Assembly (NCBI GenBank): GCA_031266495.1 | Contig: JAISAX010000080.1 | Coordinates: 1 to 5,986, forward strand | Length of the DNA stretch: 5,986 nt | Direction: 5' to 3' | DNA from: Opitutaceae bacterium | GTDB lineage: Bacteria; Verrucomicrobiota; Verrucomicrobiae; Opitutales; Opitutaceae | Part shown: positions 1 through 5,986 of the stretch, one piece after another | How positions within the stretch are numbered: position 1 is the stretch's first letter | Layout: each line of letters starts with the position of its first letter | Made by a program: the position numbers and the translations under genes | Notes under the pieces: generated by a model | Database searches by the model: none | What the model was told of the DNA's origin: nothing | The model's input: the letters and a program-made list of their open reading frames with translations, nothing else

Positions 1-60
1 CTGCCCGCACCAGCAAAAAGAATCCCTCCCGTCCCTCCCCCCTCCCCGCCCCCGGCTCTC

Positions 61-477
61 TCAGCCGAGCACTTCCTCCGGTTTGAAAAAACGGGCGATC
101 TCGTTCTCGCCGTTCGCGACGCTGTCGGAGGCATGCACGACGTTGACCATCATGTTCTCGCCGAAGTCGCCGCGGATCGTCCCCCGGGCCGCCCGGGTGG
201 AATCGGTCGGGCCGAGCAGGTCGCGCACTTTCGCCACGGCGTTTTCCCCCTTGAGCACGAGGGCGAGCACCGGTCGCTGGCTCATGAACGCCTCGATCTC
301 CGGATAAAAGGGTTTTGTCGCGACGTGCGCGTAATGCTCGCGCAGCTGCGCGGGTGTCAGCCGGAACAGCCTGGCGGCGATGATCTCGAGGCCGGCTTTT
401 TCGAAGCGGGTGATCACTTCGCCCACGTGTTTTTTCGCCATGCAGTCCGGTTTGCAGATGATGAAGGTTTTTTCCAT
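61..477 (-). CDS. ndk: Nucleoside diphosphate kinase
   Basis: A 138-residue cytoplasmic enzyme that transfers the gamma phosphate of ATP to other (d)NDPs through a phospho-histidine intermediate, balancing NTP pools. Seen in the sequence: the N-terminal ICKPD (Lys9), the segment GTIRGDFG (residues 99-106) and the active-site motif NVVHASDS with catalytic His115. Length is normal for the family (about 135-150 residues). The reading frame stays open far upstream to about 1047, but the family N-terminus (hydrophobic strand then KPD) begins at MEKTF, so the ATG at 475-477 is chosen. The upstream extension overlaps hisH on the other strand and looks non-coding. Only a weak GGGA sits before the ATG. 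The residues after KPD (CMAKKHVGE) differ from the common forms but keep the Lys-His-Val-Gly-Glu core. The gene is divergent from hisH and its stop lies 60 bp from the window edge. Identification is firm. Confidence 0.97.
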   Translation of the reverse strand: MEKTFIICKPDCMAKKHVGEVITRFEKAGLEIIAARLFRLTPAQLREHYAHVATKPFYPEIEAFMSQRPVLALVLKGENAVAKVRDLLGPTDSTRAARGTIRGDFGENMMVNVVHASDSVANGENEIARFFKPEEVLG

Positions 478-631
478 AAAGTGTCCCGGATCACAAACGG
501 CCCGCCCTCGCTTGGGAAGCCTGATTTTGGCATGAATCAATTCCTCCCCCCCCTCCCCACCCTCCCTGAAGGCTGAACGCAGGCTTGCGGTGCGTGGCGT
601 GTGGCCGGAGTTTTTCCGTTTATTCGTCAAT
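478..631. promoter_or_regulatory. Divergent ndk/hisH intergenic region
   Basis: This 154-bp spacer must hold the 5' ends of two divergent genes. It contains a pyrimidine-rich stretch with a C8 run at 546-553. I see no convincing -35/-10 pair for either gene. hisH has no Shine-Dalgarno sequence in front of its ATG; the bases immediately upstream are AT-rich (TTTATTCGTCAAT). That promoters lie here follows from the divergent layout, not from a recognised motif. Confidence 0.4.
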
Positions 632-1312
632 ATGCCGATCATCGCCGTCATCGATAATGGAATTTGCAATTTGCGCAGCGTCACCAGGGCGCTCGATGTG
701 GTGGGCGCTTCTGTGCGCGTTGTCCGCTCCGCCGCCGATATCTCCGCCGCGCCGCAGGCCGACGGGTTGGTGCTCCCGGGCGTCGGCGCGCTGGGGGATT
801 GTGTGGCTTCGCTGCGGGCGTCGGGTATCGATGATGCCGTGCGTGGCTGGATTCGTGATGATCGTCCGTTTCTTGGCGTGTGCCTCGGTATGCAGGCGTT
901 GTTCGAATATTCGGAAGAGGGTGGCACCGGCGACGGCACACGCGGCCTCGGCGTGTTTCCCGGCAAGGTGATCCGTTTCCGGTTCGCGTCCGGGTCCGGA
1001 CTCGGTCTGAAGATCCCGCACATGGGGTGGAATACCCTCCGTTTCACGCAACCGGCTTCGGTGCTCGCGGCCGGTCTGCTGGCGGTCGGCGAAGCGTTTT
1101 ATTTCGTGCACAGTTACCATTGCGTGCCGGCGGACGCGCGCTTGGTGCTGGCCGAGTGCGATTACGGTGGCGGCTTCACGGCGGCCATCGCCCGCGGCAA
1201 TTGCTTCGCCACCCAGTTCCATCCGGAAAAGAGCCAGGCGAAAGGGCTGCAAATCTACAAAAATTTCGCGACCATCGCAGACAACGCCTCGGGAAAAAGC
1301 GGGGGTAATTGA
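632..1312 (+). CDS. hisH: Imidazole glycerol phosphate synthase, glutaminase subunit HisH
   Basis: A 226-residue class I glutamine amidotransferase. With HisF it forms IGP synthase: HisH releases ammonia from glutamine, and HisF uses it to make imidazole glycerol phosphate and AICAR in histidine biosynthesis. Visible motifs: N-terminal IAVIDNGICNLRSV, the oxyanion-strand region LPGVGALG (48-55), nucleophile elbow GVCLGMQ with Cys84, KIPHMGWN (127-134), YFVHSYH (157-163), and QFHPEKS with His197 and Glu199 completing the Cys-His-Glu triad. Length is slightly above the usual 195-215 residues because of a short polar C-terminal tail. A GTG at 590 would add 14 residues, but the ATG at 632 matches the family N-terminus. 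There is no clear ribosome binding site. No other his gene is visible, so it may be a lone gene or the window may cut off the context. The glutaminase triad is intact, so it should be functional. Confidence 0.96.
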   Translation: MPIIAVIDNGICNLRSVTRALDVVGASVRVVRSAADISAAPQADGLVLPGVGALGDCVASLRASGIDDAVRGWIRDDRPFLGVCLGMQALFEYSEEGGTGDGTRGLGVFPGKVIRFRFASGSGLGLKIPHMGWNTLRFTQPASVLAAGLLAVGEAFYFVHSYHCVPADARLVLAECDYGGGFTAAIARGNCFATQFHPEKSQAKGLQIYKNFATIADNASGKSGGN

Positions 1313-1313
1313 C

Positions 1314-1377
1314 GGGGGGGGGGGGGCGGGTGGTACGGGTTATTTACCTTTTTTTTCCCCCCCCCCCCCCCGCCCCC
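1314..1377. repeat. G13 and C15 homopolymer pair between hisH and the M56 gene
   Basis: A run of 13 G at 1314-1326 begins two bases after the hisH stop codon. It is followed by C and GGG, then GGG again at 1337-1339. A T8 run at 1349-1356 runs straight into a C15 run at 1357-1371, then G and C5. The G and C tracts are complementary and could fold into a 13-bp G:C stem with a loop of about 30 nt. Each strand also has G-quadruplex potential. It may act as a 3' boundary for hisH, although no U-tract follows the stem, or as a slippage-prone spacer ahead of the next gene. Tract lengths could be miscalled by sequencing. Confidence 0.75.
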
Positions 1378-1399
1378 GACATCTACCGGAAGACTCTCC

Positions 1400-2479
1400 A
1401 TGAACTTTCCCGCTATCCTCGCCTCTCTTTCCACATGGATCGATCTCTTGCTCGTTCGTTACCGGATTCTCGAAGTCCATTACCCGCATCTGACCACTTT
1501 TGCCTCATGCGCGGCCAGGACCATCGCCATCGTGTTGCTCGCCTGGATCGCCGCAACCCTGCTGCGCGGCCACTCGGCCCGCGCTCGCTGTTGGGTGTGG
1601 CGCTGCGCCGTGCCCGGACTCCTTGCGGTCCTGCTGCCGGTTATCCATCCTGTGGTGACAGCACGGATACGGATCACGCTTCCCGTCGAGCCGCAACAGG
1701 GACAACAGGAGAAAGCCTATATCCAGATCCGGGAATGGGGCCTGCTCCCGCCCGCCGGCTTCGGCGAAACCCGCTGGCAGGAACGCCGGGCGGAACGCAT
1801 CGCCCGCGATGAACCGCCGTGGATTGTTGACCGGATCGACACTGTCCCGCTTCGCACCGCCCGGGACGAGATCACCGTGCCATTCTGGCGGCAGGCAGAC
1901 ACATGGATCTCGCGGATCTGGGCTGCAGGAGCCGCGCTGCTGGTGACGATCTGGCTCTTGCGGCTTTGCACCGGCCTTCTCTGGCTCCGGCGCAATGCAC
2001 GCCGTCCGGTTCCGGAAGTCGCACAGATCGCCCGAGATGTTGCCCGCGAACTCCGCCTGCGTTCCATTCCCCGCCTTCGGCAAGGTCCGCACATTAACTC
2101 TCCCCTGCTGACTGGCTGGCTGTATCCGCATATCCACCTGCCGCCCGAAGCAAACACCTGGCCCGTCACTCAACCACGCATGGTGTTCCTGCACGAACTG
2201 GCGCACTGGAAACGCATGGACATGTTCTGGCATCACCTTGGACGGCTCACGTCGCTGCTTGTCTGGTGGAACCCTCTGGCCGCGTTCGCTTCACGCCGGA
2301 TGATGCGCGAGGCCGAGGAAGCCGCTGATGACGTTGTCATATTGAAACATTCCCGGCAGATGTCAGCCGATATCATCGCCGCCACCATCACACAACTGGA
2401 GCCGCTCGATGCGCTTCCACCCGGCGCGCTCACTCCGCCCGCGTCACCCGGCGAGGCGTTGTCTCCCGCGAGGCCATGA
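1400..2479 (+). CDS. M56 (BlaR1-type) membrane metallopeptidase, short C-terminus
   Basis: A 359-residue predicted inner-membrane zinc peptidase. Family members such as BlaR1/MecR1 sense a signal and trigger cleavage of a repressor; others have unknown targets. Seen: probable membrane segments around 38-55, 70-87, 172-196 and 281-297; the zinc motif FLHELAHWKRMD (HELAH, residues 265-269); the conserved WWNPL (289-293) ahead of the third-ligand region REAEEAADDVV (303-313), where Glu306 aligns with the ligand position. The usual Cys of the YACDD signature is Ala309. Start ATG 1400 is supported by GGAAGA at 1388-1393. After residue 320 the typical helical continuation is missing. The protein ends in a Pro/Ala-rich tail (LPPGALTPPASPGEALSPARP) without a sensor or transpeptidase-like domain, so it may be truncated or frame-shifted at its 3' end. 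No BlaI/MecI-type regulator lies next to it. The family call is firm; function is not known. Confidence 0.85.
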   Translation: MNFPAILASLSTWIDLLLVRYRILEVHYPHLTTFASCAARTIAIVLLAWIAATLLRGHSARARCWVWRCAVPGLLAVLLPVIHPVVTARIRITLPVEPQQGQQEKAYIQIREWGLLPPAGFGETRWQERRAERIARDEPPWIVDRIDTVPLRTARDEITVPFWRQADTWISRIWAAGAALLVTIWLLRLCTGLLWLRRNARRPVPEVAQIARDVARELRLRSIPRLRQGPHINSPLLTGWLYPHIHLPPEANTWPVTQPRMVFLHELAHWKRMDMFWHHLGRLTSLLVWWNPLAAFASRRMMREAEEAADDVVILKHSRQMSADIIAATITQLEPLDALPPGALTPPASPGEALSPARP

Positions 2480-2531
2480 CCGGCAAAGCTCCTCGACAGG
2501 AAGCCATCAATCTCCACCAGGTGAATGTCGA

Positions 2532-2684
2532 GGGTGTAATTGAAAGGGGTGAAAAAAGGAGGAAACGCTGAACGCTGAACACTGAACGGGGAGTTACCTT
2601 GATTCAGTGTTCGATGTTCGATGTTCAGTGTTTGTTTGTCCTCCGGATGAAACACCGCATCTCCCATCACTTTCAATTACACCC
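2532..2684. repeat. Nested inverted-repeat (fold-back) element 1
   Basis: Perfect 15-bp terminal inverted repeats GGGTGTAATTGAAAG (2532-2546) and CTTTCAATTACACCC (2670-2684) enclose further nested arms. These are GGAGGA (2558-2563) with TCCTCC (2639-2644), and AACACTGAAC (2578-2587) with GTTCAGTGTT (2623-2632). The inner left arm consists of heptamers AACGCTG, AACGCTG, AACACTG (2564-2584). The right side consists of TTCAGTG, TTCGATG, TTCGATG, TTCAGTG (2603-2630). A transcript of either strand could form a long interrupted hairpin. It resembles a MITE-sized or intergenic repeat element; no clear target-site duplication is visible. Confidence 0.75.
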
Positions 2685-2903
2685 CTGAAGTTACGCGGAA
2701 CGACGTGGCACGGACTTCCAGCCCGTAGACGGATCGGCAGTAAAGCGCCGCCTCCCTGCTCACCTTCGTGTCATTCACTGTAAACAACTGTAATTCGCTC
2801 AAACAAATGATCTTGCCTGGTGGCAAAGGGCGACGCTGCGCGTCGTCCACGGGGATTGTCAGAAAAAGCCCGTGCCACTTCAAGGCAGTCCGCGTAACTT
2901 CAG
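2685..2903. repeat. Inverted-repeat (fold-back) element 2, abutting element 1
   Basis: Perfect 15-bp arms CTGAAGTTACGCGGA (2685-2699) and TCCGCGTAACTTCAG (2889-2903), plus inner 9-bp arms GTGGCACGG (2705-2713) and CCGTGCCAC (2870-2878). The first base of this element directly follows the last base of element 1. The interior contains a smaller possible stem, CACGGG (2848-2853) with CCCGTG (2869-2874), and a less GC-rich core around 2760-2820. The right arm is followed by a second tandem copy of TAACTTCAG (2904-2912). Its arms look like two inverted copies of one short repeat, separated by unique sequence. Confidence 0.72.
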
Positions 2904-2926
2904 TAACTTCAGTCTTGATTCCCCTT

Positions 2927-2939
2927 CCCCCCCCCCCCC
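2927..2939. repeat. C13 homopolymer tract
   Basis: Thirteen consecutive C, preceded by CCCCTT. It lies in the convergent intergenic space between fold-back element 2 and the twin-hairpin repeat. It resembles the C15 run upstream of the M56 gene. Confidence 0.85.
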
Positions 2940-2951
2940 GCCGTCCCCGGA

Positions 2952-3004
2952 TTGCCCGGCGAGACGCCGGGCAAGGCACGCGAGACGCGTGCGCTCCCCG
3001 GACC
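2952..3004 (+). repeat. 53-bp twin-hairpin repeat, copy A
   Basis: Hairpin 1 is TTGCCCGGCG, AGA loop, CGCCGGGCAA (2952-2974), a perfect 10-bp stem. After one spacer base, hairpin 2 is GCACGCG, AGA loop, CGCGTGC (2976-2992), a perfect 7-bp stem. The 12-nt tail GCTCCCCGGACC (2993-3004) follows. Bases 2976-3008 are identical to 5890-5922. The element lies about 25 bp past the stop codon of the minus-strand surface-protein gene, so its transcript would fold into two stable stems there and could protect or terminate the 3' end. No U-tract is seen. Confidence 0.85.
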
Positions 3005-3028
3005 TTCCCGATCGACGCTTGACGACGC

Positions 3029-5722
3029 TTACCGTTTACCCGACGCGCTGCGACGCGCTGCGGCCAGCATCAGCATCGCCGCCAGGCCGGCCAGCACCGC
3101 ACACGTGGCTGGCTCGGGCACAGCAACCGCATTCACAATGGCTGTCAGCGTCACATTGCCGTCCAGGTAGCTGATCGTGTAGTCGTTGCCGCCTTGCGAT
3201 GTGTAGGTCGCTCCCTCGCTATAGCCGCCAAATATGCCGCTGATACTGGTGCCGTCGATCAACGTGAATACGTCGCCGTTGTGGAGCGCCTCCGCCTCCA
3301 CTCCGGTGTCATCAAAGACCAGCGTCGCGCCGGCCAGCGTGGACACTCCGCTCACGACCAGCGTCTGGTAGTCGTCCGGTGACTGCGCGCTCACCTCAAA
3401 CGTGCTCGTGGAGGTGAATGTCAGATTGCCGACAATGTCCTGGACGTTGGCGCCCAGGCTCAGCTTGTTGCCGCTGCCCGCAAACACGACATTGCCAACC
3501 ACCTGGGCGGCCCTGTCCCCTTCGAGGCTGGCGGGGCCTCCGGCGAGGACCAGTTCCATGTTGTTGGCCGCGATACGGATTGCCGTGCCGCCGCTGGCCG
3601 TGTTGGACACCGTCCCTTCGTTCACGACCGTGCCCGACCCCACTCCCGTCACATAGATGCCATAGGCGTTGCTCTCGTTGACCGTCACCGTGCCGGTGTT
3701 GAGCAGGTCCACGCTCCCGGTCGAGGTGGAAGCGCCGTACGCGTAAATGCCGTGCGCACCGGAACCCGAGGTCGTGATGTCACCGGTGTTGGTCAAATCC
3801 ACGGCACGCCCGGAGGAGTAAGTGCCGTACGCATAAATGCCGTGGGCACTGGTACCCGAAGTCGTGATGTCGCCAGCGTTGTCCAGATCTACGCTCCCGG
3901 TCGAGGTGCCGTGCGCATAAATGCCGTGGGCACTGGCTCCCGAGGTCGTGATGTCGCCGACGTTGCGAATTTTTGTCTCTCCCCCGCTCGCCGAGCTGTA
4001 GGCAAAAATACCCTTCGCGCCGTCACCGTGCGTGGTGATGGTGGCCGAGTTGTCGATATCGATCTTGTTGCCGGTTCCGGCGTTCCTGGCCAGGATGCCG
4101 CTGGCTCCGTACAAGTCGCCGTAGGTGACGTTGCCAAGGTTGTCTCCCCACGTTTTGATGGTGGTATCGGCACTGGTCTTGATATGAATATTGCCCCCGC
4201 TGGTGCCGCTGGTCTTGATGGCCGCGATGCCCATCGCCACGCCCGCGCCCGTGCCTTTTTCGTTGGCGATGATCTCGGCCTTGCCAACCGAAATATCAAT
4301 GCCACCCGTTCCGGTGCTGTTGTTCACAGTCTGGGCATTGATGACGCCACGTGCAGTGTTGGACTGTGCGTAGGTGGTGAAAAAATCTCCCGTAATCGGC
4401 ACCTCGGCGCCCTCCGCATCGTAACCGATATAGACATGGCCGCCTCCAGTTGCACCCGTGGTAATCGCCGAAGCGGCATCCGAGCGGATGGTGGCGTTCT
4501 GGATGCTTGCATAGACATCTCCTCCATCGTCATTAGATCCCAATACAACGGAACTCCCACTTCCGTTAACGGCAGTGGTAGTGCTTCCGTTCACGCTCAC
4601 AGCGTTGAGGTTCCCGTTGATCCAATTGTGAATGCTGGTACCGTCAATATCGATAACGCGTTTTCCGCTGCCTGCATGCCCGAGGTACATGGCGTAACCG
4701 CCGCCGTTGCCACCCATGTCCTTCGAGCCTATATCGATGCTGCCGCCACGGGTCGTCACGATCATGTCCCCCGTCGAATTCGAGTTCAGGGCAGCAAGAT
4801 GTATGCCGTCGGTGCCGTCGGCGGTCACGATCTCGCTGTGCTGACCCAGGAAGACTTCGATATTGCCCTCCGAAGCGACGTTGCGAACGAACATAGCCCG
4901 GTTGGCACGCCCGGACGCGACCTCGGTGACTTCGAGATAACCGTCGTTATAGATGCGAACCGTTCCGGTCGTGGCAGTAGTACTACTCAGATACGCGTTG
5001 AGTACACCACCAACCACGGAACTCCCGCCGGTAAGGATGCCGGTAGCGATAAGGCTGCCGGTGTTGGAGATGGTGATATTGCCAGTCATCGACTGCGCAT
5101 GAATGGCACCGACAGAGGCGGTGATAGTGCCCGAGTTCTCCACGACAACATCGCCACTGTTTGCCGTGCCGTAAATACCCCAACCATTGGTGCTGGCGAC
5201 ATCGATTGTCAGACCGCTCGTGATGTTGATGTTGCCCGTCCCGCCGTTGGGAGTCGTATTGGTATTTGCGCTGATGCCGTACCTGCTGGCGACAGCATTG
5301 CCGACTGTAATATTCACACCGTCGGCTATAGTATTCCCGTCATCGCCTGTAACAGGCTTGGGTTCAAGATTGATAGTGATATCGCCGCTTGTCTGGGCCA
5401 GGATGCCATGGGCCGCGGATGAACCGGGTGTTGCGACAGATTCTATAGTGTCGATATAGCCCTCAATAAAAATATTCTTGCCCTCAGTGGACGTGACCGA
5501 AATCGCAGGCACGGTTCCCGTGGCACTCAGATTTCCGGCAAGATCGCTGTTAGTCTCGTTGTTGAGGATAATAGCGCCGCTGGATTCATCGGCATTGGCA
5601 TCGATCAGGGAGATGGAGGTCGCTGCGAACACCGGAGAAACCGGCAGGGCCAGCAGCACCGCCAACGCAATCGCTCCGGCGCGAAACCGGACGAATATTT
5701 TACAGGATATTTTTATATTCAT
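3029..5722 (-). CDS. Secreted repeat-rich PEP-CTERM surface protein
   Basis: An 897-residue predicted exported protein of unknown specific function, probably an extracellular or surface-bound beta-helix. Residues 1-33 form a signal peptide: basic start (Lys4, Lys8, Arg12, Arg14), hydrophobic AGAIALAVLLALPV, likely cleavage after VFA at 33. Residues 34-715 are rich in Ser, Thr, Gly, Asn and Asp with alternating strand-turn patterns such as GDITI, GTVRI and GNIEV. Residues 560-700 contain 28-30-residue repeats of the type GDITTSG..AHGIYAYG. Residues 720-865 resemble the closing part of passenger-like proteins (NGDVFTLIDGTSISGIFGG...YTISYLDGNVTLTA). The end is VPEP (868-871), a hydrophobic helix (872-889) and RRSASGKR: a PEP-CTERM signal, processed by exosortase in known systems. 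There is no outer-membrane beta-barrel, so it is not a classical type V autotransporter. The start at ATG 5722 is set by the signal peptide; no Shine-Dalgarno sequence is visible. No exosortase gene is in the window. Confidence 0.88.
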   Translation of the reverse strand: MNIKISCKIFVRFRAGAIALAVLLALPVSPVFAATSISLIDANADESSGAIILNNETNSDLAGNLSATGTVPAISVTSTEGKNIFIEGYIDTIESVATPGSSAAHGILAQTSGDITINLEPKPVTGDDGNTIADGVNITVGNAVASRYGISANTNTTPNGGTGNINITSGLTIDVASTNGWGIYGTANSGDVVVENSGTITASVGAIHAQSMTGNITISNTGSLIATGILTGGSSVVGGVLNAYLSSTTATTGTVRIYNDGYLEVTEVASGRANRAMFVRNVASEGNIEVFLGQHSEIVTADGTDGIHLAALNSNSTGDMIVTTRGGSIDIGSKDMGGNGGGYAMYLGHAGSGKRVIDIDGTSIHNWINGNLNAVSVNGSTTTAVNGSGSSVVLGSNDDGGDVYASIQNATIRSDAASAITTGATGGGHVYIGYDAEGAEVPITGDFFTTYAQSNTARGVINAQTVNNSTGTGGIDISVGKAEIIANEKGTGAGVAMGIAAIKTSGTSGGNIHIKTSADTTIKTWGDNLGNVTYGDLYGASGILARNAGTGNKIDIDNSATITTHGDGAKGIFAYSSASGGETKIRNVGDITTSGASAHGIYAHGTSTGSVDLDNAGDITTSGTSAHGIYAYGTYSSGRAVDLTNTGDITTSGSGAHGIYAYGASTSTGSVDLLNTGTVTVNESNAYGIYVTGVGSGTVVNEGTVSNTASGGTAIRIAANNMELVLAGGPASLEGDRAAQVVGNVVFAGSGNKLSLGANVQDIVGNLTFTSTSTFEVSAQSPDDYQTLVVSGVSTLAGATLVFDDTGVEAEALHNGDVFTLIDGTSISGIFGGYSEGATYTSQGGNDYTISYLDGNVTLTAIVNAVAVPEPATCAVLAGLAAMLMLAAARRSASGKR
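3041..3060. repeat. 10-bp tandem duplication in the surface-protein 3' end
   Basis: CGACGCGCTG occurs twice in a row within the codons for the basic tail after the membrane helix (RRSAS region). Ten is not a multiple of three, so gain or loss of one unit would shift the frame and move the stop codon. The present two-copy state gives the short tail RRSASGKR. Confidence 0.7.
3695..3958 (-). repeat. Three tandem 28-30-codon repeats in the surface protein
   Basis: Residues 589-616, 617-646 and 647-676 are three tandem units with the consensus GDITTSGxxAHGIYAYGxxxxGxVDLxNx. The DNA is also similar: GCGTAAATGC at 3741, GCATAAATGC at 3831 and GCATAAATGC at 3915 mark the same position in successive units, 90 and 84 bp apart. 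Diverged units flank them at residues 560-588 (ITTHGDGAKGIFAY) and about 677-701 (VTVNESNAYGIYVTG). This fits one rung per unit of a beta-helix. The in-frame spacing allows copy-number change by recombination. Confidence 0.85.
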
Positions 5723-5736
5723 ACTGTTTTATTGGT

Positions 5737-5771
5737 ATCAGGAAAAAGAGATTTTTTATATCGATCCTGAT
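5737..5771. promoter_or_regulatory. AT-rich leader with 7-bp inverted repeat upstream of the surface-protein gene
   Basis: Inverted repeat ATCAGGA (5737-5743) and TCCTGAT (5765-5771), spaced 21 bp, lies 15-49 bp upstream of the start codon in an otherwise unusually AT-rich stretch. On the minus strand a TATAAA (5760-5755), -10-like, falls between the arms. No matching -35 is visible. This could be an operator overlapping a promoter or a 5'-UTR stem; the assignment is tentative. Confidence 0.35.
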
Positions 5772-5773
5772 CC

Positions 5774-5826
5774 GGTCCGGGGAGCACACGCGTCTCGCGT
5801 GTGGTGTTCGGCGTCTCGCCGGACAC
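5774..5826 (-). repeat. 53-bp twin-hairpin repeat, copy C (inverted)
   Basis: Read on the minus strand, it has the same order as copy A. On the plus strand it reads the 12-nt tail complement GGTCCGGGGAGC (5774-5785), the 7-bp hairpin ACACGCG-TCT-CGCGTGT (5786-5802), one spacer base, and the 10-bp hairpin GTGTTCGGCG-TCT-CGCCGGACAC (5804-5826) with one T:G wobble. Against copy A, the outer pair of the 7-bp stem changes from G:C to A:T on both sides, which keeps pairing. It sits about 50 bp upstream of the surface-protein start codon. Confidence 0.83.
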
Positions 5827-5834
5827 GGTTCGTG

Positions 5835-5859
5835 TCGGCTCGGATCGGCTCGGCTCGAC
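5835..5859. repeat. Five-unit pentamer array
   Basis: Five consecutive pentamers, TCGGC, TCGGA, TCGGC, TCGGC and TCGAC, lie between the two facing twin-hairpin copies. An overlapping 6-bp hairpin GACACG-GTT-CGTGTC (5822-5836) shares bases with the outer arm of copy C, so those two folds exclude each other. Confidence 0.6.
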
Positions 5860-5865
5860 AGCAAA

Positions 5866-5918
5866 GGCTTGGGCGGGACGCCCAAGCCAGCACGCGAGAC
5901 GCGTGCGCTCCCCGGACC
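5866..5918 (+). repeat. 53-bp twin-hairpin repeat, copy B
   Basis: Hairpin 1 is GGCTTGGGCG, GGA loop, CGCCCAAGCC (5866-5888), a perfect 10-bp stem whose sequence differs from copy A but keeps length and pairing. After one spacer base comes the same 7-bp hairpin as copy A (5890-5906) and the 12-nt tail GCTCCCCGGACC (5907-5918). It faces copy C, 39 bp away. Confidence 0.85.
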
Positions 5919-5986
5919 TTCCGCAAACTGGCACGCCTGGTGCTTACAGGGATATATGTCCCCGTATTAACTATACGAATGGGGGG
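5919..5986. other. Right-end non-coding DNA with two small palindromes and a G run
   Basis: No gene is seen. It contains GGGATATATGTCCC (5949-5962, 4-bp arms) immediately followed by CGTAT-TAACT-ATACG (5963-5977, 5-bp arms). The window ends inside a run of at least six G (5981-5986). The AT-rich palindromes could be regulatory sites for a gene beyond the edge, but nothing in the window tests that. Confidence 0.4.

Follow-up and report, generated by a model that had tools for sequence, protein, structure and literature searches.

A REP/REPIN-like twin-hairpin repeat of Verrucomicrobiota and a probable cognate RAYT residing in frame in alaS

Introduction

Repetitive extragenic palindromic (REP) sequences, bacterial interspersed mosaic elements (BIMEs) and REP doublets forming hairpins (REPINs), together with the REP-associated tyrosine transposases (RAYTs), constitute systems termed REPtrons, which combine short covarying hairpins, many intergenic copies, inverted pairs, and a Y1 HUH gene bounded by inverted copies. 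Here, we describe a repeat with this set of features that occurs three times in a 5,986-nt stretch of DNA from an Opitutaceae bacterium (hereafter the window; GenBank assembly GCA_031266495.1, contig JAISAX010000080.1, positions 1 to 5,986). It is unlike the REPtrons in possessing two hairpins per unit, and in a RAYT that, in relatives, lies in frame in alaS, the gene for alanyl-tRNA synthetase (AlaRS). The repeat is probably a REP/REPIN-like unit of Verrucomicrobiota, moved by a cognate RAYT that resides in alaS in five relatives.

Inteins with homing endonucleases furnish one parallel, in that a mobile nuclease gene sits in frame in essential proteins and is patchily distributed. The RAYT chimeras reported here share these traits, but Pfam scans of two of them revealed no splicing domain. 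Other parallels come from published work on palindromic repeats and their transposases. TIRtrons and their TIRYTs likewise have a tyrosine transposase set between inverted ends, which are longer and in some cases doubly palindromic; the parts of the paper covered do not describe them as in-frame residents of another gene, whereas the dispersed units here are covarying twin hairpins (PMC3733652). GGGGAGCG agrees with their motif GGGGWSAS at 7 of 8 positions, as compared by the text of that paper. Rickettsia palindromic elements (RPEs) and the intragenic REPs of Opitutus terrae (PMC3733652) are palindromic repeats tolerated in frame in genes; there, in the text covered, the repeat is alone in the gene, while here it is joined by the transposase gene. 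The REPs within tnpA-REP genes of subclass 2.4 are in-frame insertions tolerated at the protein periphery, as are the repeats here, and the nesting is reversed: there a REP lies in a RAYT, here a RAYT and its REPs lie in a housekeeping protein (PMC6006769).

From the same literature, RAYTs are described as single-copy, vertically inherited and of unknown function (PMC8049555), and as cleaving single-strand REPs at CT (PMC8266576). REPs of the GTAG type are overrepresented in Opitutus terrae, where many lie inside genes, and transposases flanked by long inverted ends have been recorded (PMC3733652). REPs occur in frame inside tnpA-REP genes, and a survey of the superfamily set aside overlong proteins as fusions or annotation errors (PMC6006769), which is where RAYT chimeras would have fallen.

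Results

The initial annotation had placed three 53-nt copies of the repeat in the window, and their sequence, coordinates and geometry were borne out (Table 1). Each unit comprises a 10-bp hairpin, 1 nt, a 7-bp hairpin and a tail bearing GCTCCCC, and the loop of hairpin 1 reads AGA, AGA and GGA in copies 1, 2 and 3. Folded as single-stranded DNA, the copies adopted the described structure with z values of -5.36, -3.94 and -5.58 relative to shuffled sequences. Two details of the stems required correction. The 10-bp stems of copies 2 and 3 had been interchanged, with GTGTCCGGCG belonging to 5774-5826 (minus) and GGCTTGGGCG to 5866-5918 (plus), and the single wobble, in copy 2, is a T.G pair on the plus strand but a C.A mismatch in the orientation of the copy itself. 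The 145-nt doublet formed by copies 2 and 3 folds, as one strand, into one long hairpin with the two tails paired with each other (RNA parameters).

To follow the repeat beyond the window, a pattern consisting of the hairpin-2 loop and the tail (21 fixed bases) was run on a collection of genome contigs. This returned 30 stretches. Of these, 26, each with a 25-nt match, came from records whose titles name members of Verrucomicrobiota, among them Ereboglobus, Opitutaceae, Didemnitutus and, in two cases, Akkermansia. The four remaining stretches (Streptomyces, two; Arachnia; a planctomycete) lacked hairpin 1 and were chance matches. Alignment A2 and covariance model R1 were built from 27 genome copies and the three window copies, omitting a cut copy (L013) and one without hairpin 1 (L018); handles beginning with G, C, L and P denote genomes, contigs, loci and proteins. 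The same pattern found 11 stretches among viral contigs, and re-examination with R1 left two real copies, both in L034 (59.0 and 45.5 bits; positions 2790-2843 and 4844-4897 of viral-collection contig IMGVR_UViG_3300021437_000038), a contig that may come from Verrucomicrobiota (misassigned, or bearing a prophage) or from a virus with the repeat. The other ten were chance or nearly so, nine without an R1 match and L031 with one weak match (27.4 bits).

Copy counts come from the genomes of relatives, the window itself showing three copies. R1 detected 3-72 copies each in all ten carriers searched, bearing out the expectation that a covariance model would find the repeat to be numerous; with stricter filters, at least 1-38 copies were found in 25 of the 150 genomes from the family of G001. 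The 12-nt tail shared by the three window copies is less uniform elsewhere: among 86 copies found by R1, GCTCCCC is present in 81 and the full GCTCCCCGGACC in 35, so the unvarying tail is partly a small-sample effect, and the conservation of GCTCCCC leans on the training of R1, for which copies were picked by a tail of this type.

The stems covary, as anticipated from the three window copies. Judged by pair counts and shuffles, 9 of the 17 pairs in A2 (29 distinct copies) changed on both sides, with 73 doubly changed cells against 22.9 in shuffles, and sliding the partner by 1-3 columns lowered the paired cells from 96% to 27-48%. Further pair types in A2 showed no excess (15 against 15.1). 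In alignment A4, which holds the 86 copies found by R1 (83 distinct; four of the 86 are missing from the printed set) and which is fitted to R1 and thus leans toward the model, 10 of 17 pairs were doubly changed, with 223 cells against 58.6. The loop-proximal GGCG/CGCC of hairpin 1 was nearly invariant even though it lies outside the search pattern.

The arrangement of the copies is that of REPs and REPINs, with inverted pairs of fixed polarity. Among all 113 R1 matches at E up to 0.001 in G001, G006, G063 and G101, close neighbours (200 nt or less) were always in minus-plus order (36 of 36 pairs from three genomes, one pair being an overlapping match), and the gap was exactly 7 nt in 19 of the 21 close pairs of G006. 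Their placement in relatives, as many dispersed and mostly intergenic palindromes, is likewise that of REPs. We took 48 sites with flanking DNA, mostly best-scoring and two of them from the window; 15 lay inside frames that stay open on either side for 60 aa or more, and in the 20 such frames no Pfam domain was split by the repeat and none had domains on both sides. By the measure of Pfam, the dispersed copies are thus intergenic, and the RPE trait of dispersed copies in frame within genes was seen at none of the 48 sampled sites, the in-gene copies found being those of the alaS unit. The initial annotation had named copies inside conserved coding frames as grounds against its reading; these were found for the RAYT unit in alaS, and at none of the 48 dispersed sites. 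Separately, repeat pairs in G052 (L249-L268) lie within a ~200-bp repeat that resembles a miniature inverted-repeat transposable element (MITE), with ends TACTGAG.CTCGC / GCGAG.CTCAGTA.

We then queried the surroundings of RAYT genes. The Y1 domain (PF01797) was present in all ten carriers and in all 16 genomes of a second set (one genome common to both), and a subset of the Y1 loci was scanned with R1 in three partly overlapping sets of 34, 72 and 20 loci. Strong copies flanked a RAYT on both sides in four genomes (G001 C37, G006 C122, G063 C44 and G101 C5), in each case inside alaS. In a fifth, G012, the RAYT on C18 is bounded by a strong copy on the one side that is assembled, the contig end cutting off the other, and a damaged copy lies at the end of C19. 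The bounding copies of the alaS RAYT are inverted, and among the Y1 loci examined strong bounding copies occurred at no other kind of place. Elsewhere, strong copies stood at a distance from a Y1 gene (0.9 kb in G005, 3.3 kb in G006 C96), the RAYT found in carB of G004 (L097) had weaker twin-hairpin relatives at its borders, and creatininase RAYTs (L147, L149) had weak R1 matches nearby. When the RAYT of G006 was compared with 252 genomes of the family, 62 had any match (E up to 1e-10), and a close RAYT (58-100% identity) was found in five, G006 included, all of them the alaS ones. The link of the repeat to this RAYT is thus supported by position, orientation and co-occurrence in the sequences. 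At the right end of the alaS unit of G006 (L103, 2931-3045) there is a doublet, which adds in-frame residues to AlaRS.

All five units are in frame in alaS. The frame runs uninterrupted over 1,127-1,164 aa in four genomes and is truncated by the contig end in G012. The two chimeras scanned with Pfam carry tRNA-synt_2c, Y1_Tnp, tRNA_SAD and DHHA1 in one protein, with AlaRS domains to either side of Y1_Tnp in a single frame (in one of them the Y1_Tnp score, 22.2, falls just below the cut-off of 23), and no splicing domain was seen. The insert lies between the GRTLDRG and YDTYGFP motifs of AlaRS, a stretch of 223-251 aa in four inserted genes against 29-127 aa in 15 others with both motifs readable; this latter range indicates that the length of the AlaRS loop is variable even without an insert. 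The structure predicted for P0010 is of moderate overall confidence (mean predicted local distance difference test (pLDDT) score 72.5; predicted template modelling score 0.45); in it, the RAYT part (461-600) had block-mean pLDDT values of 62-91, while the repeat-encoded linkers (425-455, 600-616) fell below 50, as did much of AlaRS 25-110. A Foldseek search with the chimera model returned AlaRS matches and, at rank 45 with E 6.8e-6, the E. coli RAYT in complex with a REP hairpin (4er8). The RAYT part alone had no match among PDB sequences, and the chimera profile matched AlaRS chains only in the PDB. G055 has a more distant RAYT in a frame of its own, immediately upstream of alaS and on the same strand (C1, 1040965-1041294).

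The distribution of the insert is patchy. Copies were present in all five genomes with the alaS RAYT and in 20 of the 145 without (150 genomes), an association that is partly true by definition, as the RAYT ends are copies; counting copies beyond the two RAYT ends, the figures were 4 of 5 and 20 of 145 (p 0.002, with R1 partly trained on these genomes and kinship ignored). The near-identical sisters G012, with the RAYT, and G060, without, possess 17 copies (alaS unit ends included) and 2 copies, respectively (E up to 0.01). Their alaS genes have flanks that are 95-97% identical and an unrelated loop, with no clean insertion footprint. Because the loops differ completely between such similar flanks, gain or loss by recombination is likely, the alaS segment having likely been swapped between the two states. 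The insert was also placed on a tree of 22 carrier AlaRS N-termini, which excluded G002 and G005, whose alaS is partial; G008 gave no alaS match. Genes were scored as lacking the insert by frame length and by having no close RAYT. Four changes are required to account for the five inserted genes, and shuffled labels needed no more in 141 of 500 trials. A single clade of the five was rejected (p 8e-7). Scattered in this manner, the insert appears to have been gained or lost often.

The two parts of the chimeras have diverged in step. Across 26 chimeras (three of them without the insert-placing motif), the mean distance was 0.385 for the RAYT part and 0.389 for AlaRS, and the distances correlated (r 0.62, 0 of 5000 permutations; r 0.61 with P0078 and P0104, which have the RAYT elsewhere and were dropped). 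The RAYT and AlaRS trees share a 12-to-14 split at high support.

Residence in housekeeping proteins extends beyond AlaRS. When proteins were searched with the score taken over the RAYT part of a chimera, 773 of 2,141 length-matched candidates matched (E up to 1e-5), including chimeras of the same genomes. Among the 120 of these that were listed, Pfam identified the hosts as AlaRS (79), ThrRS (16), MetH (13), RecG (7), HrpB (3) and DnaE (2), where some names are those that we take the Pfam accessions to denote. The HUH and Tyr motifs are kept in 112 of the 120, and eight (P0001-P0008, AlaRS or MetH) contain two RAYTs in one reading frame. Some of the listed proteins bear source names such as 'alanyl-tRNA synthetase/REP element-mobilizing transposase RayT', and annotation pipelines have therefore met the AlaRS-RAYT fusion. 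Ten further long frames from Opitutaceae harbour more distant RAYTs, with a host domain by Pfam in nine (chorismate-binding enzyme, five; creatininase, two; Eco57I methylase; adenosine deaminase) and Y1 only in L148. Two kinds of locus among distant RAYTs were observed in passing: RAYTs of other types that precede a chorismate-binding domain in the same frame (five genomes; L143, L145, L146, L150 and L151), with repeat-like peptides of their own at the borders, and a RAYT in frame with Cas_NE0113 (CRISPR-associated) and adenosine deaminase domains (L144).

The rest of the window offered little further context. An Rfam scan at E up to 1 gave 22 matches, every one of them in the low-complexity tract 1290-1392, which the poly-G / poly-C run there marks as noise. 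The M56 protein had no match among viral contigs, and part of the window had none among plasmids. The 897-aa protein had no Pfam match, and its C-terminus resembles a PEP-CTERM tail. Against the nearest genome, G015, hisH alone matches, so that genome provides no empty site for the copies of the window.

Table 1. Features of the window (open reading frame, ORF; R1 scores in bits)
Feature	Position	Strand	Description
Copy 1	2952..3004	+	hairpin 1 2952-2974 (10 bp, loop AGA), spacer 2975, hairpin 2 2976-2992 (7 bp, loop AGA), tail 2993-3004; R1 77.6 bits
Copy 2	5774..5826	-	tail 5774-5785, hairpin 2 5786-5802, spacer 5803, hairpin 1 5804-5826; left half of inverted pair; R1 75.1 bits
Copy 3	5866..5918	+	hairpin 1 5866-5888 (loop GGA), spacer 5889, hairpin 2 5890-5906, tail 5907-5918; right half of inverted pair; R1 82.1 bits
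Spacer between copies 2 and 3	5827..5865		39 nt; minus-plus order as in the close pairs of three relatives
Complete REPIN-like doublet	5774..5918		145 nt, tails outward, upstream of the minus-strand 897-aa ORF
897-aa surface-type protein	3029..5722	-	between copy 1 and the doublet; from ORF listing
Long poly-G / poly-C tract	1309-1380		between hisH and the M56 gene
BlaR1-type M56 peptidase	1400-2479		no obvious partner in window
Two further inverted-repeat units	arms 2532-2551/2665-2684 and 2685-2699/2889-2903		back to back, MITE-like

Discussion

Taken together, a model for the repeat emerges. It would form the ends of a non-autonomous mobile element, REP/REPIN-like in kind, that belongs to Verrucomicrobiota, the full element consisting of two inverted copies with tails outward, and single copies being decayed or partial elements. 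The two hairpins would fold on single-stranded DNA and be recognised by the cognate Y1 HUH transposase, which would act in trans, cutting near the conserved GGGGAGC / GCTCCCC end and copying the element to new intergenic sites. A CT stands directly 3' of hairpin 2 and is a candidate cleavage site, by analogy with the cleavage of REPs at CT by RAYTs (PMC8266576). In five relatives the whole RAYT unit sits in a variable AlaRS loop and is predicted to be translated with the essential enzyme as one protein, the repeats possibly serving as flexible linkers; a RAYT so placed could not decay by frameshift or stop without harm to the host gene, which would favour its retention. The REP/BIME-RAYT reading offered by the initial annotation is thus supported by the many copies, the covarying stems and the Y1 gene bounded by inverted copies in five genomes. 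Its proposal that carriers would contain such a gene held for the five alaS RAYTs (four bounded at both ends, one at a single end), and several copy-rich relatives lack a bounded Y1.

These relatives are among the observations that weigh against the model. No close RAYT and no Y1 bounded by strong copies was found in copy-rich G002 (4 of 4 Y1 matches examined), G003 (5 of 5), G008 (7 of 7), G072 (2 of 2), G052 (10 of 10), G108 (5 of 6) or G004 (3 of 4), and the nearest relative of the window by HisH, G015 (91%), has two copies and no close RAYT. Conversely, G101 has the RAYT but just its two flanking copies. The variable stems of the alaS flanks are unlike those of the dispersed copies of the same genome (among the copies printed), and the RAYT and AlaRS trees disagree in places below the shared split, for instance at P0065 and P0015/P0016/P0020. 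The classical 5' GTAG of REPs is absent; the conserved GCTCCCC reads as GGGGAGC 5' of hairpin 2 on the reverse strand, where the nearest counterpart of GTAG is GGAG, one base from the stem.

G052 raises the prospect that the RAYT association is incidental, the pairs being ordinary MITEs that owe their movement to an unrelated transposase of the DDE type. At least two of three signatures of the outer repeat, which has its own inverted ends, were found in 16 of the 20 loci fetched from that genome, and a second, larger mobile element has amplified the pairs there. As most of the fetched copies lie in this element, the RAYT is not the sole route of spread, and the several carriers without a RAYT bounded by the repeat also speak for the MITE explanation. 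The 20-nt flanks of pairs in other genomes share no outer element by eye, the strong bounding copies among the Y1 loci examined belong to the alaS RAYTs, and covarying hairpins are what single-strand Y1 enzymes read; we thus regard the MITE explanation as unlikely. A role in RNA, as terminators or mRNA-stabilising ends spread by ordinary duplication, would suit the stability of the hairpins and the position of copy 1 just beyond the 3' end of the 897-aa ORF. This we hold to be very improbable, as no T-run follows the tails of the copies, terminator-like sites are about as frequent in 2880-5986 as in shuffles (3 against 2.5; one weak site is hairpin 1 of copy 3 on the minus strand, 5888-5866), the copies match no Rfam family at E up to 1, and fixed inverted pairing and spacing are unexpected of terminators.

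The repeats and the RAYT could also be old, inactive remnants carried passively in alaS. One close RAYT per genome in the five genomes, and an insert that is scattered on the AlaRS tree with no clustering beyond shuffles, would both agree with this. Against it stand the equal and correlated divergence of the RAYT and AlaRS parts and the catalytic motifs retained in nearly all listed chimeras, which argue that the RAYT part is under purifying selection and make passive carriage very improbable. A REP/REPIN-like unit with a cognate RAYT in alaS is therefore the reading that we prefer.

Intragenic REPs have been published previously; what is new is where the cognate RAYT resides, namely in frame in the AlaRS of relatives. 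Searches of open papers for RAYTs within tRNA synthetases, within Opitutaceae or as in-frame parts of genes brought up, among the entries listed, no report of RAYTs housed by essential genes. More broadly, and tentatively, it is quite possible that a class of mobile elements of Verrucomicrobiota, catalytically intact RAYTs with twin-hairpin ends, persist in frame in essential proteins (AlaRS, ThrRS, MetH, RecG, DnaE and others; at times two in one protein), unspliced and expressed with the host, and from there spread twin-hairpin REPINs, the three copies of the window included. An in-frame home in an essential gene is a concrete way for a RAYT to be kept: a frameshift or stop would hurt the host enzyme, and the transposase would be translated for as long as the enzyme is needed. 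Residence in alaS may thus explain how such transposases escape loss, and, if the chimera is active, a tRNA synthetase would double as a DNA-processing enzyme.

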